The notes beneath the pieces were generated by a model. The model searched no databases and was not told the origin of the DNA. It saw only the letters and a program-made list of their open reading frames with translations. This document shows positions 3,695-16,569 of a stretch of DNA of 64,000 nt, piece by piece. Every line of letters begins with the position of its first letter. The first letter of the stretch is position 1. The translations under genes were made by a program, and so were the position numbers. Source of the DNA: Acidobacteriaceae bacterium KBS 83 (GTDB lineage Bacteria > Acidobacteriota > Terriglobia > Terriglobales > Acidobacteriaceae); contig KB906739.1 of NCBI GenBank assembly GCA_000381585.1, forward strand, positions 248,001-312,000. The letters run 5' to 3'.

Positions 3695-5581
3695 TTACCC
3701 GATCGGCTCCATCACCGTATCTCCCTCGCCCGGCGCCAGGAATCGGTTCGCATCCAGTCCATGCTGGCGTGTGTACAGGTCGTAGTACCGGCCGCCCAGC
3801 GCAAACAGCGTCTCGTGCGTTCCGTGCTCTACGATTTGTCCGCCCTCCACCACCAGGATCTGGTCGGCGCGGCGGATGGTGGAGAGCCGATGCGCAATCA
3901 CAAACGTCGTCCGCCCCTGCATCAGGAAGCTCAGGCCATGCTGAATCATCGCTTCGCTTTCTGAATCAAGCGACGAAGTCGCCTCGTCCAGGATCAAAAT
4001 GCGCGGTTCGGCCAGGATCGCCCTCGCAATCGACAGCCGCTGCCGCTGACCGCCCGAGAGCTTCACCCCGCGCTCACCCACGATCGTCTCGTAGCCATCC
4101 GGGAAGCGCTCGGCGAACTCATCCACCCGCGCAATCGCGCATGCGTTCAGGAACTGCTCCTCGGTCGCATCCGGACGCGAGAACATCACGTTCTCCCGGA
4201 TAGAGCCGTCGAACAGGAAGGACTCCTGCAGCACCACACCAAGCTGGCTGCGATAGTTGTCCAGCCTCACCGTCGAGAGGTCGACGCCGTCCACCAGGAT
4301 CGTTCCTGAATCCGGTGCATGGAAGGCGCAGATCAGGCTAATGATCGTGGACTTCCCCGACCCCGACGATCCGACCAGCGCGGTCACTGTCCCCGGCTCG
4401 GCATGGAACGAGATGCCGTGCAGCACCGGCTTGTCCGGTTCGTACGCGAAACGGACCTCGTTGAAGCGCACATCGCCCGTCACCGGCGGTAGGTCCATGA
4501 CGCGCCCGGGCTCGTCATACTCCTGCTGTTCACCCAGTATTTCCGCGGTGCGGTCGAGGCCAGCAATCGCCTCCGTCAGTTGGGTGCCGACGTTCACGAC
4601 CTGAAAGATAGGAGCAACCATGAATGCCAGGAACATCGTGTACTCGACATAACCGCCCGTCGTGATCTTGTTGGCAAGCGCCTCCCGGCCGCCGAGGAAC
4701 ATCACCAGCGAGCCCATCAACCCCACCACGACTGTCGACGCCATCGCGAGCGCAGAAGTCATGGTCATCGACTTCATCACGTTATCCAGCAGCCGCTGCA
4801 CTCCGCCGGAGAAGACCCCCGCCTCCCGTGCCTCCGCATGGTAGCCCTTCACCACCCGGACTCCCCCCAGCGACTCCGTAAGGCGTCCGGTCACCTCGGC
4901 GTTGATCTTGCCGCGCTCACGGAAGATCGGCCGCATCACGCGCAGCGTCTTCTGCAGCACGGTGGCAAATATCAGGATGACGAAGAAAATGATCAGCGTA
5001 ATGATGGCACTGATCTTCATCAGCACCGCAAACGCGATTAGCGCGGTGATGATGCCGCCGACAAAGTCCACCAGTCCGGTGCCGATCAGGTTGCGCACGC
5101 CTTCAACGTCGGTCATGATGCGCGACACCAGGTTGCCCGTGCGATTCGCGTCGTAGAAGCTGACTGAGAGCCTTCCTATGTGCGCTTGCACCTGGCGGCG
5201 CAGGTCGGCGATCATGCGCTGCGCGGCCTTGGACAGTAGCTGCGTCAGCGCGAACGATGTGGATGCCTGGATGATGGTGGCGGTCAGCACGAAGCCGATA
5301 ATGGGTAGGAGCAACTGCCCGTTGCGCCTCGACAGCACGCCGTCGACAAAGGGCTTGGAGGAGTACGGCAGCACCAGGCCGCAGAAGCGATTGATGACCA
5401 TCAGCACGAAGCCGAGCGCCAGCAACCACCGTCGCGGACGGATCAGCCGCCAGACGTGGGGCCATACCTTGGTCAGCTTTGGCTTGGCGGGCTGGCTGGT
5501 GTCCCCGGCTCGGATCGCGCCGCGCGCCGAAGTGGTGCGTTCCGCCTTGGTCGAAAGGTTGTGGGGCCGCATGCTCTGCAT
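3695..5581 (-). CDS. ABC exporter, fused permease/ATPase (MsbA-like)
   Basis: A complete 628-residue half-transporter of the inner membrane. A basic 40-residue N-terminus leads into six predicted membrane segments (about residues 50-340), with coupling motif SFYDANRTGNLVSRIMTDVE. The ATPase domain has A-loop FAYEPDKP, Walker A GSSGSGKST, Q-loop VVLQESFLFDG, canonical signature LSGGQRQRLSIARAIL, Walker B ILILDEATSSLD and switch His in FVIAHRLSTI. All catalytic residues are present, so it probably works as a homodimer exporting lipid or drug. It is the last gene of a minus-strand run that starts at 10155, with only 12 bp separating it from the small membrane protein. Confidence 0.95.
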   Translation of the reverse strand: MQSMRPHNLSTKAERTTSARGAIRAGDTSQPAKPKLTKVWPHVWRLIRPRRWLLALGFVLMVINRFCGLVLPYSSKPFVDGVLSRRNGQLLLPIIGFVLTATIIQASTSFALTQLLSKAAQRMIADLRRQVQAHIGRLSVSFYDANRTGNLVSRIMTDVEGVRNLIGTGLVDFVGGIITALIAFAVLMKISAIITLIIFFVILIFATVLQKTLRVMRPIFRERGKINAEVTGRLTESLGGVRVVKGYHAEAREAGVFSGGVQRLLDNVMKSMTMTSALAMASTVVVGLMGSLVMFLGGREALANKITTGGYVEYTMFLAFMVAPIFQVVNVGTQLTEAIAGLDRTAEILGEQQEYDEPGRVMDLPPVTGDVRFNEVRFAYEPDKPVLHGISFHAEPGTVTALVGSSGSGKSTIISLICAFHAPDSGTILVDGVDLSTVRLDNYRSQLGVVLQESFLFDGSIRENVMFSRPDATEEQFLNACAIARVDEFAERFPDGYETIVGERGVKLSGGQRQRLSIARAILAEPRILILDEATSSLDSESEAMIQHGLSFLMQGRTTFVIAHRLSTIRRADQILVVEGGQIVEHGTHETLFALGGRYYDLYTRQHGLDANRFLAPGEGDTVMEPIG

Positions 5582-6032: not shown

Positions 6033-6539
6033 CTATGGATTCGGCTTCGCTGCGCGCAATGCGTCCATGATCTCGCTGACCACCTGATCGGGCGGAAGAT
6101 CCGCCGCAACGCGGATCGCGTTGCGCGGTGTCTCGAGTGTCGCAATCTGGCTATCAAGCAACGCCGGGCTCATATAGTGGTTCTTGCGCTCTGCCAGCCG
6201 ATGCTCCAGCACATCTCGCGGCACCTCCAGAAGGACGAAGTGCATCTCGGAGTTGGGAATGCCCGCCGACAACTTGTCGCGATACGCCTGTCGCAAGGCC
6301 GAACAGGCCAGCACACCGCTCGTGCCACTGCGATACCAGCCCCGCAGCACCTCGTGCAGGCTGGCCAGCCAGGGGGCACGATCCTCATCGGTCAGCGGGA
6401 TCCCGGCATGCATCTTGGCTCTGTTCGCCTCGGAGTGGTAGTCATCCCCCTCGGCGTACTCCCAATGCTCAGAGGCCGCCAGCTTCCTACCGATGGTCGT
6501 CTTACCACTCGCGGTCACTCCCATCAAGACCAGAATCAC
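6033..6539 (-). CDS. gntK: Gluconokinase
   Basis: 168 residues. It phosphorylates D-gluconate to 6-phosphogluconate with ATP, feeding the pentose-phosphate or Entner-Doudoroff routes. The P-loop is GVTASGKTT (residues 7-15). The family motifs EGDDYHSEANRAKM, PLTDEDRAPWL and CSALRQAYRD are intact, and length matches GntK (about 165-175). It starts with GTG, which overlaps the stop of the SCO-family gene (GTGA). The overlap means translational coupling to the copper genes; no functional link is obvious. Confidence 0.95.
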   Translation of the reverse strand: MILVLMGVTASGKTTIGRKLAASEHWEYAEGDDYHSEANRAKMHAGIPLTDEDRAPWLASLHEVLRGWYRSGTSGVLACSALRQAYRDKLSAGIPNSEMHFVLLEVPRDVLEHRLAERKNHYMSPALLDSQIATLETPRNAIRVAADLPPDQVVSEIMDALRAAKPNP

Positions 6540-7438
6540 CCCTTCGTCCCCCCGCCCACCTTCTTCAATTCATCCAAAACATCTTCTGGCTTCCAGTCAT
6601 TCGTGGGATACCACTGCGCGATCTTGCCATCTGGACCAATTACTGCAGTGGACAAAGAGTGCGTGATGGTATGGTTTTCCCCGGGAGTCGCGCCCACATC
6701 AAAAAACTCCAGCAGCTTCGGCAGGTCCGTTTTGGCGGGTGCAGCGAAGTCCCAGTGATCGAACTTCTCTCTCGTATAGTTCCCTGTATACGCCTCGCCG
6801 TAGCTTCGCAGTACCGCGGGCGAATCGTAGGCGGGATCGAAGCTGATGCTCAGCAGATGCGTCCGATTGTAAAGTGCAGGATCGGCCTGCAGGCTTTTGT
6901 CGATGGAGGCGAAGTTGCGGCTCATACGTGGACAATAGTCCGAAAGCGGGCATCGCGTGTAGATGAAGGTCACCAGCAGCGCTTTGCCGTGAAATTGGCT
7001 GAGGTTGATCTTCCGACCGCTCTGATTTGTAAGCCGGAAGTCTGGTACCGCATCGCCAGGTGCAGGAACATGATACTGTGCCTGCGGCTTGTAGTCCGGC
7101 TGGACTTGCGCTGTGATCACGATCTGGTCGAGCAGCGTGCCGCTATCTGCAACCAACAGCATGCCTGTCATATGATCGCCTGGATGCAGGTCCTGGAGGA
7201 TGTTCGGATCCTTTACCTTGTAAGGCATGGTCATTGCATCCATTAATCCCGGGATTGCCTCGGAGTCGACTGTGACCTCGCTGTGTGGCGGATCCGTGCC
7301 TACGATAATTCCCTTCACCGCGTACTGTTTCACCTGACCGGATTGTACGGTCGCCGTCGGCATAGAGTCGCTGTGACAACCGCCCACCGACAATATAAAC
7401 ACCCACCCGAACAGCAGACTAAGCACAACGCTTCTCAT
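6536..7438 (-). CDS. SCO1/SenC-family copper lipoprotein with N-terminal CusF-like domain
   Basis: 300 residues. A lipoprotein signal ends at Cys in LSVGGC, so it is membrane-anchored in the periplasm. Residues about 38-115 resemble the CusF/copper-binding Cu_B domain (GIIVGTDP, VDSEAIPGLMDAMTMPYKV, LHPGDHMTGMLLV). Residues about 125-295 form the thioredoxin-like SCO1 domain (VPDFRLTNQSGR, LVTFIYTRC). The usual SCO CxxxCP motif is widened here to CPLSDYCP (C-x5-C), and the third ligand His is in THSLST. SCO proteins insert copper into cytochrome oxidase or manage copper and redox in the periplasm. A good Shine-Dalgarno (GGAGG/GAGG) precedes the ATG. It lies 32 bp after the TonB receptor in the same operon. 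Confidence 0.9.
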   Translation of the reverse strand: MRSVVLSLLFGWVFILSVGGCHSDSMPTATVQSGQVKQYAVKGIIVGTDPPHSEVTVDSEAIPGLMDAMTMPYKVKDPNILQDLHPGDHMTGMLLVADSGTLLDQIVITAQVQPDYKPQAQYHVPAPGDAVPDFRLTNQSGRKINLSQFHGKALLVTFIYTRCPLSDYCPRMSRNFASIDKSLQADPALYNRTHLLSISFDPAYDSPAVLRSYGEAYTGNYTREKFDHWDFAAPAKTDLPKLLEFFDVGATPGENHTITHSLSTAVIGPDGKIAQWYPTNDWKPEDVLDELKKVGGGTKG

Positions 7439-7470
7439 CCTCAGATCCTCCCTCTGATGATGCCACTTCT

Positions 7471-9744
7471 CTAGAAGTGAAACCGGTAACGCACCTCGAC
7501 CGAGAGCATGCGAGGATCCCCTACGTGGCTACCGCCGAATGTATTGCTCAGATCGACCTGATAGCGATTGTTGGTGATGTTGGTGCCGATCGCGCGAACC
7601 GTCCAGCTCTCGCCGACGCTCTTGTTCAGTGCGAGGTCGAAGGTCGTGTAGCTGGGCAGATGCTGTGGTCCATCGCCGTCTAAAAACCCTGAGCCGTAGA
7701 CGACGTCGAATGCTGCAGTCGTTCTCCACGGCAGCGAGGAATCAAAGCCAGCAGTCAGCGAATTGCGCTGATCGTGGTCGAGATAGAAACCACCCTCCTC
7801 GGGCGGAGAAAAATCGGTAAGGCCCCCGGTGACTCCCCCGAAACCCTCTGCCTGCTGGTTGGAGTAGATGAGATGCGCATGGGAGTGATACTTCAGCTCC
7901 GGAGAACGAATGTTGGCCTCCCAGCCGCGTATGCGTGCACGCTCAATGGTGAGTGGGAAAAACAAGTTGGAATTACCGATTGCGTCGTGGTCGAAGAAGT
8001 TGCGCGCGCTGGTACGGAAGTTGTCGAAAGATGCGATCCATCCACGATATGGCACGACCAGGCCAACGTCGTACTGCTCGTCACGCTCGCCGTGCAGGGG
8101 CAGAAAACCGAGGTCCTGCGTCTCTGCGAATTCAAGCACTGATCCCGATACCGTATCGAGGGGCGGAGCTTGGTAATAGCGGGAATAGGATCCACGTAAT
8201 ACCCAGGCAAGCCGCGGTAATGTGATGGCCGTGCCCACACGCGGATCCCATGCGTGCTCGCTGAAGCTCCCGTCAAAGTACGTGAAGCGCAAACCACCGT
8301 TCACCGACCACCAAGGCATCACCTTCCACTGCTCCTCCACGAACGCTGCATCCACCTGCCCGTGAGGGGCAATACTCTGGTGAAACGGTGTAACGGTGGG
8401 ATCTGTCGACGTCACGGCGAAACTTCGGTCGTCCTGCTGGGCAAAAGCGTAGACACCCGCACGAAAATTGCTAGGCCCTTTGACCTGGGAGAACACCGTC
8501 TGGCCGCCCTCATAGTAGGAGATCCGGTCATCCGTCGTACTGAGCGGATCATCTGGCCCGCCAACATATGCGGCACGGTTCGCGTGAAAGAAGGGCGACA
8601 CGGTGAGCAGGGTGCCCTGACCGACGGAGTGGGTCCAGGATCCGATCGCAAAGCCGTCCTGCTCGCGATCACGGTCGCGAATGCCCGCCGCCTGTTGCTC
8701 GGCGTCATTCGGTACTTGATAGAAGTCGGCGCGAAAACCACCATCCAAACGGAACTGATCCTGCGCTGTCTTGTTGAAGATGAGCGATGTGAAACCTCCG
8801 CCGCCATCGCCTGTGTTATGCAGGTTCTGGTACGTGGGCGGTGCAAGCGCATAATCTGTGCGGTTTCCGTTGCCGCTCGCATACCACGCCAAACGCTCGG
8901 AATGGTCGCCCATGCTGATCTGATCATTGGTCGTGTTGTAAGTCCCGTAGCTGGCGATCAGTTCTCCCTGCCGATCGCGCTCAAAGCCAGTGCGGGTCGC
9001 GACATTGAAGACTCCGTAGGTACGGTCGCCATAGTCCGCCGGGTAGCCGGCGGTGCTGGCCTCCAGATAGTCCATATCCTTGGGGTCGAACTGAGGCCCT
9101 ACGTTGGTGGCAATGTTTGTGTTTGGCAAGGGGACTCCATCGATGGCCCATGTAACCTGATGACCTCCGCGCACGTGGAGCTGATCATGCACAACATAGG
9201 AGCCCGGAACAAACTGTGTAATGACCCGCAGGCTATTGCTCTGGTCCATTCCGGCATAGCTCTCGATCTGCCGGCGCGCGATCGTTGTCTCCACCGTGGA
9301 AGTTGTGGTCTCAAGCGGAACCTCCTGATCACTGACCTGAACGGTCTCGTGCGGGCCAGCGGGAAGCAGCTCAAAGTGCAGCACCGGAGCGCTTCCGCTT
9401 CGCACGAGCAATTGCTCCTGATGCGTTGCGAATCCGGCCGCAGTGACAGTCAGCCGATACTCGCCAATAGGAAGTGAATTGACTTCAAAAGTTCCTGTCG
9501 CATCGCTCTCGACCTTGATGCTGTATTGCGATGCAACTGCAACGACTACAACACTGGCTCCCGAGATGGGCCGGTGTGATGTATCGTGCACCACACCCCG
9601 CACTGTGGCTATCACTATCGCGTTCGCGGTCTGCATCATGTAGAACAGTGCACACAGCAGCGCCATCAAAGCCGCGGCTCTTACGTCCCTTCGTCGCAAC
9701 ACGTCGCTCTCCCTCTTCGCATTGGCCTGCTCAGACATGCGCAT
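7471..9744 (-). CDS. TonB-dependent outer-membrane receptor, probably copper-linked
   Basis: 757 residues. The N-terminal signal is followed by a carboxypeptidase-regulatory-like beta-sandwich (about residues 48-130, VRGVVHDTSHRPISGASVVV). Next come the plug domain (about 145-260, with TWAIDGVPLPNT) and a beta-barrel ending in aromatic Phe (RYRFHF), typical for outer-membrane insertion. Such receptors import scarce ligands using TonB energy. Placement between an exported Cys/His protein and a CusF-SCO lipoprotein suggests copper or a copper complex as ligand; this is inference from context. The ATG at 9744 has its GAGG Shine-Dalgarno buried in a hairpin (see separate entry). Confidence 0.92.
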   Translation of the reverse strand: MRMSEQANAKRESDVLRRRDVRAAALMALLCALFYMMQTANAIVIATVRGVVHDTSHRPISGASVVVVAVASQYSIKVESDATGTFEVNSLPIGEYRLTVTAAGFATHQEQLLVRSGSAPVLHFELLPAGPHETVQVSDQEVPLETTTSTVETTIARRQIESYAGMDQSNSLRVITQFVPGSYVVHDQLHVRGGHQVTWAIDGVPLPNTNIATNVGPQFDPKDMDYLEASTAGYPADYGDRTYGVFNVATRTGFERDRQGELIASYGTYNTTNDQISMGDHSERLAWYASGNGNRTDYALAPPTYQNLHNTGDGGGGFTSLIFNKTAQDQFRLDGGFRADFYQVPNDAEQQAAGIRDRDREQDGFAIGSWTHSVGQGTLLTVSPFFHANRAAYVGGPDDPLSTTDDRISYYEGGQTVFSQVKGPSNFRAGVYAFAQQDDRSFAVTSTDPTVTPFHQSIAPHGQVDAAFVEEQWKVMPWWSVNGGLRFTYFDGSFSEHAWDPRVGTAITLPRLAWVLRGSYSRYYQAPPLDTVSGSVLEFAETQDLGFLPLHGERDEQYDVGLVVPYRGWIASFDNFRTSARNFFDHDAIGNSNLFFPLTIERARIRGWEANIRSPELKYHSHAHLIYSNQQAEGFGGVTGGLTDFSPPEEGGFYLDHDQRNSLTAGFDSSLPWRTTAAFDVVYGSGFLDGDGPQHLPSYTTFDLALNKSVGESWTVRAIGTNITNNRYQVDLSNTFGGSHVGDPRMLSVEVRYRFHF

Positions 9745-9751
9745 GGGTGCT

Positions 9752-9774
9752 TGCCTCGATGATGCAACGAGGCA
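9752..9774 (-). promoter_or_regulatory. Hairpin holding the Shine-Dalgarno of the TonB receptor
   Basis: A perfect 7-bp stem (arms TGCCTCG and CGAGGCA, 9-nt loop). On the mRNA the 3' arm contains GAGG, which lies 9 nt before the ATG at 9744. Folding would hide the ribosome site. The structure is seen; control of translation is inferred. Confidence 0.5.
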
Positions 9775-9798
9775 GCGACAACCAGCGCGAAACGAGTG

Positions 9799-10155
9799 TC
9801 AGGCGACTGAGGGAGGAGCGCGGGATCCTGGAAGGCCGGCCAGGAACGTAGACAGCGCCGCGAGCTCCGCAGAAGGAGTATCTGCGACTTCCGGGGTCCG
9901 AACAATTGGCGCGCCGGTAGTGGGCAGATAAAGCGCCGGCAGGACCGCCGCGTGCGTCATGTTGGCGAACGGACAGCCTTCTGCGCGCCAGGCAGGAGCA
10001 CTGCCTTCACGTGTTGTGCCCATGCAATGATGTGCGCCGTGAACGCGGCAGCAAGCAGGCAGCAGTACCTGCGGTTGAACCAGATCGAGCGCTGTTGCGC
10101 CAGGAACAAGCAGCAGCATCCAGTACATCAACAGGTTGGCAATGAGACGCTGCAC
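9799..10155 (-). CDS. Small exported Cys/His/Met-rich protein, putative copper-binding
   Basis: 118 residues with a hydrophobic N-terminal signal (MQRLIANLLMYWMLLLVPGA). The mature protein carries a dense metal-ligand cluster, ACCRVHGAHHCM (about residues 34-45), and a second patch, EGCPFANMTHAAV (about 59-71). The C-terminal half is Pro/Ala-rich and probably disordered. I know of no named domain. From memory, similar short proteins with a CCRxxGxHHC core occur in Acidobacteria. GTG start; it heads the operon with the TonB receptor (54-bp gap) and the CusF-SCO gene. Cys, His and Met ligands plus these neighbours point to periplasmic copper binding, as DUF2946 proteins may do beside copper receptors elsewhere. 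That role is inference. Confidence 0.72.
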   Translation of the reverse strand: MQRLIANLLMYWMLLLVPGATALDLVQPQVLLPACCRVHGAHHCMGTTREGSAPAWRAEGCPFANMTHAAVLPALYLPTTGAPIVRTPEVADTPSAELAALSTFLAGLPGSRAPPSVA

Positions 10156-10294
10156 CTTTGCAGTTTAGAGCATTTCTGGGGAGGGTGAGCGGCTTCACGC
10201 TGAAAATCAGCCTCTTGATCCAGCATGTTGTGTGGCGGCCACCATTACACTGAAGGGCGTGACGGGCCTACGCGGAACTGGATTGTCGGTAGAA

Positions 10295-13000
10295 ATGCGT
10301 CAGTTGCTGGACCGGGGCGGCGTGATCCTGACCGCGAACGCGCGCGCCGCCCGTGCGCTGCACCTTCGTTATGCAGAGAGCAGGCAGGCAGAGGGAGCGG
10401 TCGCCTGGCTGACACCTCAAATCATCGACCTTCATTCGTGGCTGAGTGAACAATGGAAATCTCTGCTCCTTACGGGAACGGAAGATCGCCTGTTGCTGAA
10501 CGAATTGCAGGAACTCGTGTTATGGCAGCGCGTCATGACGCCGACGCTTGCCGGCCGCACCCTCATCGAACCAGCGCACATGGCCAAGCTGGCCCAGCAG
10601 GCATATTCCCTCCTCGCTACACACAACGCCCTTGCACGCGTCAACGATCCGCTTTGGATGGCGGAGCAGTCCGCCGAGCCCGAAGTGTTCCGTCACTGGG
10701 CGCGCGGCTTTCAGCAGGAGTGCACGCGCCATCGCTGGATCGCGCGCTGTGAACTTACAGAGGCTGTGACCTATGCTTTGCGGTTCGGGGCAATGGCACC
10801 CCCAAAAGAAATTGGATGGCTCGGTTTCGATCGCCCAACTCCTGCCGAACAAGGGCTACAGGCAGCACTCATAGCGCGTGGAACCGCGCAGCAGATGTTG
10901 GCCTGGAGAATGGAACAACGTGTGCCGCCCGCGCTCTATGCTGCAAAAAATGACAAAGACGAGACAGTGGCATGCGCTACGTGGGTCCGAAATCGACTGG
11001 AGGCGAATCCCAAAGCGCGTATTGGCATCCTTTTGCCTGACCTCGCGAACCGCCGATCACAGCTCGAGCGCGACCTGTCTACCCTGCTGAACCCGCAGCA
11101 ATTTGCCATTACGGCAGGAGCGGCGCCGGCGCTGTCCTTTGAGTTCTCGCTCGGACAGCCCCTTGCACAAGTGCCTTTGATTCATGCGGCTCTCCTGTTG
11201 CTGCGCTGGCTACGCCAGCCGCTTCCGCAGCAAGAGGTTTCCTGGCTATTACTCTCCAGCACGCTCGGCGCCGCGCAAGGCGATGCCTCCAGGGACGCAC
11301 TGGCGCATCTGGACACGAAACTGCGAAACGCGAGGTGCGCGCCGCCAGAGATAACTCTGGAGGCATTCTTGCATCGCCCGCAAACGGGTGTCCCAGCAGC
11401 TCGTTCACTGCATCACAACTTGACCGCTATGCTTCAGGAGCATCGCCGCGCTGCGCGTCGCGCCACCGGTGGCCAATGGGTGCGCCACATTACAAGCTTG
11501 CTGCTATCGGCACGATGGATCGACCAATCCAATACCTCGAGCCTCTTATTTCAAGCTCGCGAAACATGGGACCGAATGCTCGACAACGTTGCTTCACTTG
11601 ATTTCGCGAATGGTCTCTTTTCTTACCAGGATTTCCTCGCGACGCTGGAGCGGGCGGCACAGGAATTGATCTTTGCCCCAGAGTCGGGGGATGCACCTGT
11701 CCAGGTAATGGGAGCCTACGCGGCGTCCGGACAGTCATTTGACAGTGTCTGGTTTCTCGGGGCGACAGATACTGCATGGCCCACCTACAACCGGCCTAAT
11801 CCACTCTTACCTATTACGCTGCAACGCGAGTTCGACATGCCGCATGCATCTGTGGCGGACGACCATGCGGTGGCTCGACGGGCAATGGAGCGAATTGTGG
11901 AGGGTTGCGGCGAGATTGTCTGTTCCTATGCACAGATGTCCGATGATGCTTTGCAGCGTCCTTCTTCGCTGGTCAGCGACTTTGCTTCCGTAGAGATCGC
12001 AACCGAAGCTGATACGTCGCTCCCGATACGACTCGAGACCGTCGCCGACGATCATTGGATCCCTTTTACGCACACCGGCGTTGTACCCGGCGGCCATATG
12101 CCGTTAAAGCGACAGGCAGAGTGCCCGTTCCAGGCATTCATCTTTCACCGACTGCACGTGCGCGAGCTCTCCATCGCAGGGCGCGGATTGTCACCAGGCG
12201 ATCGCGGCACGCTCGTCCACAAGGTAGTGGAGGGAATTTGGTCGAAGGACCTTGGCGGCTACACGCACCTCACCAGTCATGCGGATCTGCTCAGAGCAGC
12301 GTCCGAGGGAATGCTTCGACCGCTCGTTGCGGAACATGCGGCGGCAGCGATTCGTTCCATGGGCGCGGAAGATACAGAACGGTGGGAGCGCGCATACCTC
12401 AAAGCAGAAGAGGAACGCACCGTCGATCTGGTGATGGACTGGCTTGCAGTGGACTGCGCTCGTCAACCGTTCGAGGTGCTTACTGTGGAGGAGAAGGCTA
12501 CGATCCAGGTCGGCGATCTCGTGCTGAACGTGCGAGCAGATCGCATCGACCGGATTCCGGGCGGTGAGCTGCTCATCGACTACAAGACAGGCGAGGTTTC
12601 AACAACAAGCTGGGAAGGCTCACGCCCCGAGCAACCGCAGTTGCCGCTCTATGCGGCGTTTGGCGATGCGAAGGCGCTCATTGGTGCGGTCTTCGCGCAG
12701 GTGCGCTGGCCGAAACCACTGTTCAAAGGACGGGTGAGCGATGCACGCGCAAACCTGTCAGACGCGCTCGATGCCAAGGACCCGCTGGTCACAGCGCCGT
12801 ACACCGAAGATGTGGTCGAAGAATGGCGCAGCACCCTGTTAAATCTCGCGGAAAGCTTCGTGCGTGGCGAAGCGCGAGTGGACCCGCATGTATATCCGAA
12901 GAGCTGCCAGTACTGTCCTCTGGCTGGAGTCTGCCGTGTGGCCGAATGTCGCGGCACCCCTGTGCGCGGAGATTCCGCCGAGGAAGAGGAATCAGAATGA
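10295..13000 (+). CDS. AddB-like PD-(D/E)XK nuclease with iron-staple
   Basis: About 901 residues, resembling the 'probable DNA repair protein' family that partners UvrD/AddA helicases. The N-terminus (ILTANARAARALHL) resembles a degenerate helicase region with no Walker A. The C-terminal nuclease has RADRIDRI and LLIDYKTGE (PD-(D/E)XK core). Four cysteines fit an AddB-type 4Fe-4S staple: one in AECPFQAF and three in CQYCPLAGVC (C-x2-C-x5-C). I chose the ATG at 10295. The frame also opens at a GTG (10232), but a -10-like TACACT at 10246-10251 would put the transcript start after it. The gene overlaps the next by 4 bp (ATGA), so the two products are probably one complex for double-strand-break end processing. 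Confidence 0.87.
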   Translation: MRQLLDRGGVILTANARAARALHLRYAESRQAEGAVAWLTPQIIDLHSWLSEQWKSLLLTGTEDRLLLNELQELVLWQRVMTPTLAGRTLIEPAHMAKLAQQAYSLLATHNALARVNDPLWMAEQSAEPEVFRHWARGFQQECTRHRWIARCELTEAVTYALRFGAMAPPKEIGWLGFDRPTPAEQGLQAALIARGTAQQMLAWRMEQRVPPALYAAKNDKDETVACATWVRNRLEANPKARIGILLPDLANRRSQLERDLSTLLNPQQFAITAGAAPALSFEFSLGQPLAQVPLIHAALLLLRWLRQPLPQQEVSWLLLSSTLGAAQGDASRDALAHLDTKLRNARCAPPEITLEAFLHRPQTGVPAARSLHHNLTAMLQEHRRAARRATGGQWVRHITSLLLSARWIDQSNTSSLLFQARETWDRMLDNVASLDFANGLFSYQDFLATLERAAQELIFAPESGDAPVQVMGAYAASGQSFDSVWFLGATDTAWPTYNRPNPLLPITLQREFDMPHASVADDHAVARRAMERIVEGCGEIVCSYAQMSDDALQRPSSLVSDFASVEIATEADTSLPIRLETVADDHWIPFTHTGVVPGGHMPLKRQAECPFQAFIFHRLHVRELSIAGRGLSPGDRGTLVHKVVEGIWSKDLGGYTHLTSHADLLRAASEGMLRPLVAEHAAAAIRSMGAEDTERWERAYLKAEEERTVDLVMDWLAVDCARQPFEVLTVEEKATIQVGDLVLNVRADRIDRIPGGELLIDYKTGEVSTTSWEGSRPEQPQLPLYAAFGDAKALIGAVFAQVRWPKPLFKGRVSDARANLSDALDAKDPLVTAPYTEDVVEEWRSTLLNLAESFVRGEARVDPHVYPKSCQYCPLAGVCRVAECRGTPVRGDSAEEEESE

Positions 13001-16000
13001 GCACAGCACATACACCGCCTTCAGTTACCGACGCAGCAGAACGGGCGCGGGCACTCGATCCTGGCGCTTCGTTCCTGGTGCAGGCCCCTGCGGGTTCCGG
13101 CAAAACCGAGCTACTTGCTCTTCGCTATCTCGCCCTGCTGCCCTATGTGGACGAGCCCGAACAAGTGTTGGCGATCACCTTTACACGCAAAGCAACGGCG
13201 GAGATGCGCATCCGCGTTCTTCACGCGTTGGAGAAAGCCAGCCACGGCGAAGATACGTCAGAAAATGAGCACGAGCAGGAAGTTCGCCGACTGGCAAAAG
13301 CTGCGTTGGCTCATGCGCAAACACGCGGCTGGCAGATTACCGACCAGCCACAGCGACTCAATATCCAGACGATCGACTCCCTCGCACTCTCTATCGCTTA
13401 TCAGACACCGTTGTTGTCTCGGCTGGGTGGGGAACTGACTCCTGTCGAAGACGCAATGCCGCTCTATGCGGTGGCCGCGGAGCGTACGTTGGCGCATCTT
13501 GGTGACACAACGGAGGTGGAACTTGCCGAGGCTCTGGCCGATATCCTCAAGCTGCGCGACGCAAACCTGCGCGATTGCGAATCGCTGATCGCAGGCATGC
13601 TGGCGCGTCGGGACCAATGGCTGCTCCTGCTTCCCGGCATTGTCCGAGAACATCCGCCTTGGGAGGAACTACGAGCAAGACTCGAGGAGCCCTTCCAGCG
13701 GGAGCATGCAACTTTGACTCATGCTGTTCGGGCAGAGTTCGCGCGCACCCCCGATGTGCTGCCAGAGATGCTCGCCCTCGCATCTCTTGCTTGCGACTGC
13801 GGTGTGGATGAGGCCCATCCGCTACGAGAGGCGCGCACACCAGACGACCTTTGCGATGCCGCGCATTGGCAAGCTTTGTGCTGTCTGATCCTCACAAAAT
13901 CAAATGATTGGCGAAAGCGCAGCATCATTCCAGCCAGGCAATACCCTAACCATGCAGCGCGTATGACCGCACTGGTCAATCGATTAAACGGGAACGACAC
14001 CCTTCTGGCCCTGCTCTCGAGTATCAGAACAATCCCACCCAGTACCTACAGTGCTCAGGAATGGCATACCGTCCGCAATATTTTCATCGTCCTCCGTCAT
14101 GCCATCGCGCAGTTACGCGTGGTCTTCGCGGAAGAAAACGTCATCGACTTTGCCGAGGCTGGCATCGCGGCGCATGGGGCAATTGAAAATCCCAGCGTGT
14201 TGATGCGGTTGGAAGATCGCGTGCAGCATTTGCTTATAGACGAATTTCAGGACACGTCACGTCCGCATTTCGCTCTTCTTCGCTCTCTCATTCAGGACTG
14301 GTATCCGGGCGATGGTCGTACCTGTTTCCTAGTAGGCGATCCGATGCAATCGATCTACCTCTTCCGGGACGCGGAGTCGCGACTTTTCCACCAGGTCCGC
14401 GAGCATGGAATGGAAATCGGAACATCGCATCTCGCATTGACGCCACTACAACTCTCGACAAACTTCCGCTCCGCCCCGGCGATCGTTCAGCCTGTGAATG
14501 AAGTCTTCCAGCGCGTGCTCGGATCAGAAAGCGACGATGAGGTGCAATACGCCGCTTCCACATCAAGCCAGCCTAGAGCCGTCGACGACGACGCCATGCA
14601 TCTGCATGTACAGACCTTCGAAAGGGACCGGCAATCTCCGGATGAGCTGGATGCTGCCGAGGCTGATGCGATGATTGCGGTGATCCGCTCTCACATGCGC
14701 GGCATGGAAGAAGCCCAGCGCCTGGGGTGCAAGCATCGAGTTGCAGTGCTGGCTCGGGCCCGTCCCCATCTGATCGAGATCATCCGGAGATTACGGCAGG
14801 AGCGGATTCCCTTTCGCGGGGTCAAAATCGATCTGCTGCGTGACCGGCAGGAGATTCTCGATCTGCTCTCCCTGTTTCGCGCTCTGCTGCACCCGGGGGA
14901 TAGAATCGCGTGGCTTGCAGTGTTGCGCGCGCCTTGGTGCGGGCTGACCATACCAGCGCTGCATACGATCTGCGGCGATTCTGAAGACGCAGTGCGCGAG
15001 CGAACGATCCCGGCTCTCATTCGCTCACACGAAGACCATCTAGATCCGGAAAGCCGCAGGCGAGTGCTCCACGTGCTGTCCATCTTGGAGCACGCACAAG
15101 CCAGCTACGCTGCGGGAGCGCTCGCCGCTTCTCCTGCTGGACTGGCACTGTGGCTCGAGCGAACATGGTCCGCTCTCCGTGCACCGCAGTTTCTCGACGC
15201 CGAATCAGTTGCTAACTGCCAGGCGTTCTTTGCAACTCTTGCGCAGATGCCGGCCAGTTGCTTCGGAACGCTGGATGAAGGCCTGAACCAACGGCTGGAG
15301 GAGCTATACGCACAGCCGGATCCCAATGCTTCGGAAGACTGCGGCGTGCAGCTTATGACCATTCACAGTGCGAAGGGTTTGGAGTTTGAAGTAGTCCTTG
15401 TGCCACAGCTTCAGAGATCTGGGAAACGCGATGATCCACCCCTCTTTCAGTGGATGGTACGAAAGCAGCCCGGAGGAAAAGAAGACGAGCTCCTGCTTGC
15501 TCCGATCGGTTACAAGCACGGTGACAATCCTCGCCTTTACGATTGGGTGAGTAAAAAGTCTTCGCGCCGTTTGCATCAGGAGGAGAAGCGACTGCTCTAC
15601 GTAGCGTGCTCGCGCGCTATCAATGAATTGCATCTCTTCGCAAACGTCGAGCGCAAACCAACAGGTGAACTTGCACGGCCTCGGAAGGGTACTTTGCTTG
15701 CGGCAGGATGGCCCGGATTGGAGCGGCGCATTGCAGAGGCGACGCAAGCGGTACCGGACTCCAATGTCCTAGTGATGCCTCGCACTTCCCTCTCGCCCTT
15801 ACAAGCTGGAAATGGCACGGTGGAAGCGCTGGCCGCCGCTGCGAATGAACCACTGCAGGTACTCCGTCGATTGCCGTTGAACTGTTTCTCCGATCCCGAG
15901 CCGGGGATGAGGCAACCCCATGCGACAGCTACGAGCACGATGAGCGCAAGGGAGGAAGGCGGCAGGGACAGCCGACTCGCCCGCGTCCAAGGAATCGTTC

Positions 16001-16569
16001 TTCATGCTCTGCTGGAGCAACTGGCCGTGGGCACCAGCGGTGATCATCCTGACTGGGGTCGGCTTGCGCACTCACTTCTGCGACAGCATGGACTTAGCCG
16101 TGCAGACGCGCAGTCGGCGCACGACGCCGTCATTCGCGGGCTGCAAAACGCTCTCGGGCATGACGAAGGCCGATGGCTGTTAGCGGCGCGGAGCGTCATC
16201 CCGGTCGAGCAATCCGGGAATGAAAGCTCATGGGATGTGACATCCTGGAATGAAACATCGTGGACCAGCGCCAGCAATGGACGCATGCTGCGCCAACGGC
16301 CGGACCGGGTCTTTTTCGGTGGCAGGTCGCCTGGCGCGCCCGGCGCTGAGTGTCTGTGGATTGTCGACTACAAGACCGGTCCGCTTCCCGAAGGTACGTC
16401 TCGCGAGAGCTTTCTTACGGCGAGCCGAGAGCAATATCGCAGCCAGTTGGAATCGTATAGCGAACTCTTCCGCAAATTATCAGACTTGGATGCGGCGGCC
16501 GCGCATCGAGAGCACCGTCTGGCGATCTATCATCCTATGCTGCCATGGCTCGATTGGTGGGCTTCCTAG
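12997..16569 (+). CDS. AddA-like UvrD helicase/exonuclease subunit
   Basis: 1190 residues, superfamily 1 helicase fused to a RecB-type nuclease. Motifs in order: Walker A QAPAGSGKTE, Ia ITFTRKATAEM, II LLIDEFQDTS, III VGDPMQSIYLFRDAE, IV LSTNFRSA, V MTIHSAKGLEFEVV, VI LLYVACSRA. The C-terminal nuclease has RPDRVFF and LWIVDYKTG. It unwinds and digests broken ends for RecA loading, together with the AddB-like protein. The ATG at 12997 overlaps the AddB-like stop. A longer in-frame extension to 12823 lies wholly within the upstream gene and is not protein-like. The gene ends 18 bp from the convergent phoU. Confidence 0.92.
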   Translation: MSTAHTPPSVTDAAERARALDPGASFLVQAPAGSGKTELLALRYLALLPYVDEPEQVLAITFTRKATAEMRIRVLHALEKASHGEDTSENEHEQEVRRLAKAALAHAQTRGWQITDQPQRLNIQTIDSLALSIAYQTPLLSRLGGELTPVEDAMPLYAVAAERTLAHLGDTTEVELAEALADILKLRDANLRDCESLIAGMLARRDQWLLLLPGIVREHPPWEELRARLEEPFQREHATLTHAVRAEFARTPDVLPEMLALASLACDCGVDEAHPLREARTPDDLCDAAHWQALCCLILTKSNDWRKRSIIPARQYPNHAARMTALVNRLNGNDTLLALLSSIRTIPPSTYSAQEWHTVRNIFIVLRHAIAQLRVVFAEENVIDFAEAGIAAHGAIENPSVLMRLEDRVQHLLIDEFQDTSRPHFALLRSLIQDWYPGDGRTCFLVGDPMQSIYLFRDAESRLFHQVREHGMEIGTSHLALTPLQLSTNFRSAPAIVQPVNEVFQRVLGSESDDEVQYAASTSSQPRAVDDDAMHLHVQTFERDRQSPDELDAAEADAMIAVIRSHMRGMEEAQRLGCKHRVAVLARARPHLIEIIRRLRQERIPFRGVKIDLLRDRQEILDLLSLFRALLHPGDRIAWLAVLRAPWCGLTIPALHTICGDSEDAVRERTIPALIRSHEDHLDPESRRRVLHVLSILEHAQASYAAGALAASPAGLALWLERTWSALRAPQFLDAESVANCQAFFATLAQMPASCFGTLDEGLNQRLEELYAQPDPNASEDCGVQLMTIHSAKGLEFEVVLVPQLQRSGKRDDPPLFQWMVRKQPGGKEDELLLAPIGYKHGDNPRLYDWVSKKSSRRLHQEEKRLLYVACSRAINELHLFANVERKPTGELARPRKGTLLAAGWPGLERRIAEATQAVPDSNVLVMPRTSLSPLQAGNGTVEALAAAANEPLQVLRRLPLNCFSDPEPGMRQPHATATSTMSAREEGGRDSRLARVQGIVLHALLEQLAVGTSGDHPDWGRLAHSLLRQHGLSRADAQSAHDAVIRGLQNALGHDEGRWLLAARSVIPVEQSGNESSWDVTSWNETSWTSASNGRMLRQRPDRVFFGGRSPGAPGAECLWIVDYKTGPLPEGTSRESFLTASREQYRSQLESYSELFRKLSDLDAAAAHREHRLAIYHPMLPWLDWWAS

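Follow-up and report, generated by a model that had tools for sequence, protein, structure and literature searches.

What does a small, exported-looking protein do at the head of a copper-type operon? The question is posed by a stretch of 64,000 nucleotides (nt) from Acidobacteriaceae bacterium KBS 83 (GCA_000381585.1, contig KB906739.1, positions 248,001 to 312,000; hereafter the window), in which three genes lie one behind the other on the minus strand: a leader, an upstream open reading frame (ORF) of 118 amino acids with a GTG start (10155..9799 in the ORF list), a TonB-dependent receptor of 757 amino acids (9744..7471) and a lipoprotein of 300 amino acids (7438..6536), separated by 54 and 32 bases. 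A sequence-only reading of this DNA had placed the three genes at these positions, had pointed out ACCRVHGAHHCM and a second patch, EGCPFANMTH, in the small protein (both are present in the 118-residue ORF), and had proposed a path of copper from the outer membrane to delivery in the periplasm. We suggest another role for the leader: with a probability of roughly three in four, it is a cis-acting regulatory nascent chain, an arrest peptide resembling CruR and CutF, on whose RAPP motif the ribosome would arrest in the absence of metal, allowing expression of the receptor and the lipoprotein, and from which copper would release it. The proposal draws on sequence and on analogy, and it is made because the R[A/G/S]PP tail is invariant, the spacing from a cysteine to that tail is nearly fixed, the gene stands in cis before a transporter, and the rest of the protein diverges rapidly. 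A role as a copper carrier is improbable for the small protein.

An invariant tail at a near-fixed distance

The leader begins with MQRLIANLLMYWMLLLVPGATA, which by eye resembles a signal peptide (putative Sec signal, residues 1-22, cut between GATA and LD; 10090..10155, minus strand, as are all operon features given below), and ends in ...SRAPPSVA before the stop. Between these lie the proposed metal-binding head CCRVHGAHHC (10024..10053; family pattern CCRxxGxHHC in the alignment) and Cys61-Pro62 (9970..9975), a second candidate ligand motif that by count stands 50 residues N-terminal of Arg112. This arginine opens the RAPP sequence at 9811..9822 (codons CGC GCT CCT CCC), proposed as the arrest motif; the motif, its invariance and its near-fixed distance to the second cysteine motif were all absent from the sequence-only reading. 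Neither Pfam nor NCBIfam gives a match to the protein at E<=1, which bears out the earlier statement that it belongs to no nameable family.

Homologues are common among close relatives. Used as a single query, the window protein has matches in 146 out of 300 genomes taken from its family (E<=0.01), and a profile built from 22 leader sequences (alignment A1; invariant positions P33, C35, C36, R37, G40, C44, C61, P62, R112, P114 and P115) matched in at least 189 of these 300 genomes and at least 43 of the 79 sampled genera (E<=0.001). Among 396 genomes from across the phylum at least 40 matched, namely the own genome, 37 of the same family, one of the same class and one weak match from elsewhere in the phylum; these counts are lower bounds, with 11 (phylum set) and 14 (family set) candidates scored per genome. 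The own genome holds one copy by this profile, and its further matches (L002-L004) are weak, with no open matching frame at L002, the one inspected. Two genomes (G253 and G129; loci L099, L100, L060 and L061) carry six and four leader-family matches, respectively. A scan of a named collection of genome contigs with the leader as a single sequence found no relative; the scan with the alignment did, in 111 stretches, from which 79 loci were kept. Their sources, among them Acidobacteriaceae, Granulicella, Edaphobacter, Terriglobus, Acidipila and Bryobacterales, are by their titles all acidobacterial save one (L151), which is labelled Nevskia soli, judging from its name a gammaproteobacterium, and which holds a typical acidobacterial leader copy, reflecting either a mislabelled bin or a transfer. 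Matches of leaders to the Pfam family Orexin were taken as chance.

For the analysis of conservation, 80 stretches were picked by hand from the listed matches for genus coverage and long contigs, a non-random choice that together with the window gives 94 leader copies. Alignment A2 holds 86 of them, leaving out the long-extended copies and one copy of L101 that has CCQ in place of CCR; invariant are C35, C36, R37, G40, H42, C44, C61, R112, P114 and P115, in an alignment that is otherwise poorly conserved (mean column identity 24%). The R[G/A/S]PP tail is present in 94 of 94 copies with 1-11 residues left before the stop, and again in all 94 hits of a profile made from the N-terminal half alone. 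A second set, drawn from the named collection, repeats this in 88 of 88 copies, 64 of them new (64/64). As a baseline, R[AGS]PP occurs within the last 15 residues of 4, and any R.PP of 28, out of 2635 other ORFs of 80-200 amino acids from the first loci, and in 85 of 18800 shuffled tails.

The distance from the cysteine of the CP motif to the arginine of the tail is 48-52 residues in 91 of 91 placeable copies and exactly 51 in 55 of them; L074 and one copy of L089, which have no CP, and the CCQ copy of L101 were dropped from this set. The CCR-to-CP distance is loose, unlike that from CP to the arginine. A fixed distance between a metal motif and an arrest site would be expected in a sensor that is read during its own translation; a mature chaperone gives little reason for it. 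Here the view of the sequence-only reading has to be weighed, in which the protein, once mature, would serve in the periplasm as a chaperone or store of copper and pass metal to the lipoprotein. The signal-like N-terminus, the CCRxxGxHHC head and the copper-type neighbours in the window's sub-group would suit such a protein, whereas the invariance of R[AGS]PP close to the stop and the 48-52 spacing are left unexplained by it, and the rest of the sequence is conserved far less than these features; in addition, leaders of homologous receptors differ in the Cys/His head and share the tail. We regard a mature chaperone as quite improbable and retain the regulatory nascent chain.

Receptors, neighbouring genes and the metal

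The 94 copies correspond to 84 operon heads, ten of which carry two copies in tandem. These tandem pairs, each copy ending in RGPP and both standing before one receptor (L055, L059, L060, L061, L062, L064, L067, L068, L089 and L101), do not owe their second copies to a single clade, an idea rejected when five changes were needed on the leader tree. Downstream genes were called by a same-strand profile search for the first gene within 400 nt, an earlier ORF-based caller having been cruder, with antisense ORFs called over real genes. The first gene after the leader encodes a TonB receptor in 78 of 84 heads and PepSY_TM in three; the others have a PepSY_TM fragment and then SCO (L049), a TonB gene 2967 nt away (L099:15577) or no TonB gene (L074). 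By the same method a TonB gene came next after 14 of 626 other genes (11 of 703 with the cruder caller). The gap between leader and TonB gene is 0-222 nt in 77 of these 78 operons and 356 nt in one. Behind the TonB gene stands PepSY_TM in 11 operons and SCO in nine, and SCO is found in 10 of 84 operons overall; the homologues do sit beside TonB genes or, far less often, SCO genes, and a metal operon, probably for copper, headed by the small protein is well supported, as the sequence-only reading had it.

The link between leader and receptor also holds when approached from the receptor, which by sequence search has matches in 122 of 150 genomes of the family and in 70 of 79 genera. At 26 of the 30 best receptor loci (the own locus included) a frame on the same strand that closes with R[AG]PP lies within the set distance upstream, and inspection of L221 and L224 showed such a frame just outside that distance, which raises the count to 28 of 30; at the remaining two, the frame is more than 1.1 kb upstream (L216) or only 167 nt of upstream sequence are present (L234). 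Among 282 other genes used as a control, R.PP was found for 8 and R[AGS]PP for 2. Reading of the frames assigns the CCR pattern to 12 of the 28 leaders and leaves 16 that lack it (e.g., ...HDCCRPLT... or ...KCPMDCC...). Automatic labelling differs, counting as divergent 18 of its 28 picks, among which are L216 and a wrong frame for L207 but no leader of L222. In all 16 leaders without the pattern a cysteine stands 44-51 residues before the arginine. Only one of their 16 genomes (G029) is among the family-genome profile matches; the A1 profile, when applied to 33 frames directly, reaches E<0.01 for 11 of the 16, so many of these leaders seem to be distant kin. Since leaders at these receptor loci differ in the head, the receptor appears stable while the leader evolves fast, save for its cysteine motif, the distance and the tail. 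One locus, L233, has a second leader-like ORF (3732-4166, plus strand; KCPM...SSHTDRGPP) downstream of the receptor.

The window receptor, correctly named by the sequence-only reading, matches the TonB barrel and CarboxypepD_reg domains of Pfam and is rich in histidine. Among 73 receptors longer than 650 amino acids, 41 (type 1, the window included) show at least 39% identity to it and 32 (type 2) at most 22%; SCO goes with type 1 (9/41) and PepSY_TM with type 2 (10/32). Across the 41 type-1 receptors, 14 of the 24 histidines past residue 44 of the window receptor are conserved at 90% or more, compared with 170 of the 689 remaining residues (odds ratio 4.3, p 6e-4), and it is possible that these histidines are metal ligands. 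The plug region holds conserved histidines in the sequence HDQLHVRGGH. The OprC-type model TIGR01778 is not among the NCBIfam matches of the window receptor at E<=1, and a search of PDB gave no sequence relative at E<=0.001.

The third gene likewise conforms to its earlier description, combining a CusF_Ec domain (7169..7324; 44.2 bits, cut-off 27) with an SCO1-SenC domain (6623..7045; 61.5 bits, cut-off 22.8) by Pfam. The copper motif of SCO1 is classically CX3C; the window domain has CPLSDYC, that is CX5C, and CP-x-x-x-[YF]-C is found in all ten operon SCO genes (window, L042, L043, L044, L049, L077, L079, L080, L081 and L103). SCO structures, including 1xzo and 1on4, match the lipoprotein in PDB. 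In the own genome CusF occurs only in this lipoprotein (E<=0.001) and SCO1 three times (E<=1e-5). The operon itself is ordinary as a copper-type operon, and the proposed delivery path, probably wrong for the small protein, is still reasonable for the receptor and the CusF-SCO1 lipoprotein.

Several observations weigh against copper, or against a first-in-operon regulator, as a rule for the whole family. Neither SCO nor PepSY_TM stands behind the receptor in 59 of 84 operons, and a Pfam scan of 20 neighbours, some of them antisense calls, returned as metal-linked only five PepSY_TM and one ZIP, the remainder being one TonB barrel piece, GH32, peptidase M23, BNR (twice), a cupin, a sugar-binding protein, VKOR, or of no clear family. 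The assignment to copper thus rests mainly on the window's sub-group and on analogy. Upstream of the leader, crude calls gave a same-strand ORF within 150 nt in 29 of 84 heads, a divergent ORF in 37, a same-strand ORF farther away in 16 and none in 2. In the window the upstream neighbour is divergent (ORF from 10232, plus strand); two long divergent ORFs fill 10232..16569 and look by eye like a helicase-nuclease pair of the AddB/AddA type. A ZIP transporter gene (L073:6286-7185, minus strand) and a VKOR-family gene (L048:4868-5293, plus strand) follow the receptor in one operon each and hint at other metals or redox.

These neighbours, the 59 operons and the report that histidine-only CutF-like proteins adjoin HupE/UreJ nickel/cobalt genes (PMC9973294) would be in line with a leader that senses zinc or nickel, the thiol redox state or, in the manner of SecM, export capacity, the link to copper being incidental. 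Set against this are the cysteine-rich heads, since such heads go mostly with copper contexts in the same paper, and the SCO gene that follows in the window and in eight other members of its leader group. In a leader tree of 91 rows, in which 37 of 88 inner branches are open and the bootstrap had not settled, the window falls in a group of nine rows (87/89). Every member of this group has an SCO gene, either within the operon or, in L079, at a greater distance downstream; the one other SCO operon, L077, belongs elsewhere in the tree. Another signal seems unlikely to us, and copper is kept as the proposed ligand.

Relation to DUF2946 and to known arrest peptides

The family closest to the leaders is DUF2946 (PF11162), to which CruR and CutF belong. 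At E<=10 it is matched by 35 of the 86 family copies, a number that no other family reaches, with 4.2e-6 as the best E value, and among its six hits at E<=0.001 in 199 genomes of the phylum, one (L197, identical with L051; 26.4 bits, cut-off 23.7) is a copy of the leader family. A frame ending in R[AG]PP is present at five of these six loci (L196-L200), and none was seen in L201. Two further DUF2946 matches (L194 and L195) are weak, and the ORFs listed for L194, the one inspected, include none that resembles a leader. Against DUF2946, ten leaders from receptor loci (L221 and nine that lack the CCR pattern) reached E 0.043 at best. We suggest that the window leader is related to DUF2946 without being a member of it, the homology being weak, and that its family is very likely an acidobacterial branch of CruR/CutF-like regulators, fast-evolving and undescribed in the searched literature. 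Titles and the beginnings of abstracts contained no description of the family or of a double use of proline codons, with supplements and subscription papers outside the scope of that search.

By the filters used for CutF-like proteins (PMC9973294), the leader is shorter than 150 residues (118), has RAPP followed by SVA at its C-terminus and a same-strand gene within 1000 nt downstream (54 nt), and its N-terminus looks by eye like the signal peptide that they include. In CruR, 45 residues separate CXXC from RAPP, and five added residues impair control (PMC9426467); in CutF, 45 residues likewise lie between the cysteine motif and the proline motif (PMC9973294). RAPP, RGPP and RSPP are reported as arrest-type motifs, and arrest of CruR on RAPP has been shown in vitro (PMC12992588). 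By analogy, the cysteine and histidine motifs of the leader would be out of the ribosome, perhaps in the translocon, once the ribosome has reached RAPP. With metal absent the ribosome would arrest there, the third residue of the motif in the P site and the fourth in the A site, as in CruR, and this arrest would allow the receptor and lipoprotein genes to be expressed, because RNA covering the receptor's ribosome-binding site is opened, because Rho is kept off, or for both reasons. Copper bound to the emerged head would let the chain fold or be pulled, the arrest would be released, and the operon would be turned down. The sequences themselves show the motif, the spacing, the signal-like N-terminus (by eye), the gene context and the conservation of these; that the ribosome arrests, that copper is the ligand, which way the switch works and what happens at the RNA we infer.

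The comparison with published systems shows likeness and difference in each case. With CruR-BfrG-Bp2921 of Bordetella pertussis (PMC9426467) the family shares PepSY_TM behind the receptor in 11 operons, and synteny of TonB-dependent transporter and PepSY_TM genes is published for cruR homologues. The family head, CCRxxGxHHC plus CP, differs from the single CXXC of CruR, the third gene of the window encodes CusF-SCO1, and the gap is 54 nt against 162 nt. With CutF-CutO of Rhodobacter capsulatus (PMC9973294) it has in common an exported-type leader, a cysteine motif, a C-terminal proline motif, a short gap and a possibly masked Shine-Dalgarno sequence (SD), while CutF has CXXXC, a multicopper oxidase as target, and is switched on by copper. 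In a survey of 52,895 genomes, ORFs that carry a signal sequence and RAPP or RGPP were reported to precede TonB-related genes across the Gram-negative bacteria (PMC12992588); given these ORFs, so like the leader in tail, signal and position, and the CruR arrest in vitro, the kind of regulator is already known. Section 13 of that paper describes neither this leader family nor its two-motif head, its spacing or tandem copies, and "acidobact" occurs once in its main text, in a figure legend. SecM, ApdA and ApdP also have an arrest motif near the C-terminus of the leader together with a localisation signal, and SecM unmasks an SD, but they monitor protein export or insertion, whereas the proposed leader would monitor metals. 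To our knowledge there are two worked examples of copper-sensing nascent chains, one from Bordetella and one from Rhodobacter.

Other points speak against an arrest of the CruR type. The window protein itself gives no hit to DUF2946, and its second motif, CPFA, has no second cysteine and so differs from the CXXC about 45 residues before RAPP that marks DUF2946 and CruR. RAPP alone was insufficient for stable arrest (PMC7897499), and the proline motif of CutF did not cause strong stalling in a reporter. Control by CruR is independent of its signal peptide (PMC9426467), so the export signal of the leader family is unexplained by the CruR model.

The signal-like N-termini speak for a second possibility within the same class of regulator, in which the sign is that of CutF: metal binding would prolong the arrest and the operon would be on, for example under copper excess. 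CutF works in this way (PMC9973294), many of the leader-TonB gaps given above are shorter than the 162 nt of CruR, and the start regions are slightly more masked than those of control gene pairs (unpaired 0.371 vs 0.421, p 0.011). On the other side, the target is a TonB receptor, of the importer class as for CruR, oprC is copper-repressed (PMC9426467), and the 20 Pfam-scanned neighbours, most neighbours being unscanned, include no multicopper oxidase or efflux gene. We treat this sign as the less likely option and prefer release of the arrest by copper.

Proline codons and the receptor's ribosome-binding site

The tail also shows a bias at the level of codons. Its Pro-Pro codons read CCTCC in 61 of 94 copies, as against 33 of 179 Pro-Pro pairs in receptor and SCO genes (p 3e-14, overstated, as are all codon-bias p values here, given that the copies are related), and CCT is used at the first proline of the tail in 61 of 94 copies compared with 178 of 901 other proline codons of the leaders. 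The bias recurs in 48 of 64 new copies and in 9 of 13 further receptor-locus leaders, a subset of such leaders made up of 12 without the CCR pattern and L221. CCUCC is the core of the anti-SD. In the window, the true start of the receptor may be GTG 9702 rather than ATG 9744, as it has a stronger SD and a better-looking signal peptide; its likely SD, GAGGGAG (9709..9715), is predicted to pair with the RAPP codons. The computed duplex of these codons, CGCGCUCCUCCCUC, with GAAGAGGGAGAGCG before GTG 9702 reaches -28.5 kcal/mol, and they pair better with their own start region than with those of other operons (77 compared). They share a complementary run of 7 nt with the SD and have a pair probability of 0.83, against 0.68 for synonymous codons. 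Over 77 of 78 operons the corresponding values are 0.261 and 0.185 (p 0.010), with 19 as against 8 above 0.5, though start sites were chosen by SD strength, a possible bias in the pairing figures. Folds of the intergenic stretches exceed shuffled sequences in stability (mean z -1.40), though control gene pairs do so to nearly the same degree (-1.05, p 0.035; 84 usable controls of 90 sampled from 112), and under the footprint of an arrested ribosome access to the start region goes up by 0.047, compared with 0.007 in controls (p 0.001).

Such data would be consistent with Pro-Pro codons that are kept as CCU-CC in order to pair with the receptor's ribosome-binding site, so that a ribosome arrested there would unmask it and one stretch would act as both stall and lock; similar receptors would be paired with fast-evolving leaders, some in tandem, whose Cys/His heads differ and whose 44-52 spacing and R[A/G]PP tail stay constant. 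We consider this combined scheme doubtful. Access to the start region rises just as much with a terminating ribosome as with an arrested one (+0.055 vs +0.047), and the imperfect hairpin that RNA folding allows between the leader stop and ATG 9744 (gap 9745..9798) does not stand out from shuffled sequences (-27.5 kcal/mol over 9801..9725, z -0.86). Native duplexes of motif and start region had no clear advantage over swapped ones (p 0.10, and p 0.058 in a second comparison), within operons CCTCC showed no association with an SD of the GAGG/AGGAG type (p 0.46), and a segment that lies 12 nt before the motif binds its own start region equally well (-14.25 vs -14.31 for the motif). In the eight SCO operons listed, access under the footprint goes up in three (window, L042 and L044), is unchanged in L081 and goes down in four. 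Decoding speed is a possible source of the CCU preference. Because of the effect of the terminating ribosome, the result with swapped duplexes and the failure of the codons to track the SD, we hold masking of the SD by proline codons secondary to the regulatory nascent chain itself. It makes a prediction at the codon level that could be tested by synonymous changes leaving the protein unaltered.

The proposed branch is widespread in one acidobacterial family, with the leader in at least 43 and the receptor in 70 of 79 genera. Profile searches miss part of it, and many acidobacteria would carry such genes unrecognised. The many natural variants of what may be one sensor, with some features fixed and others free, offer material for understanding how a metal could release or hold a stalled ribosome.

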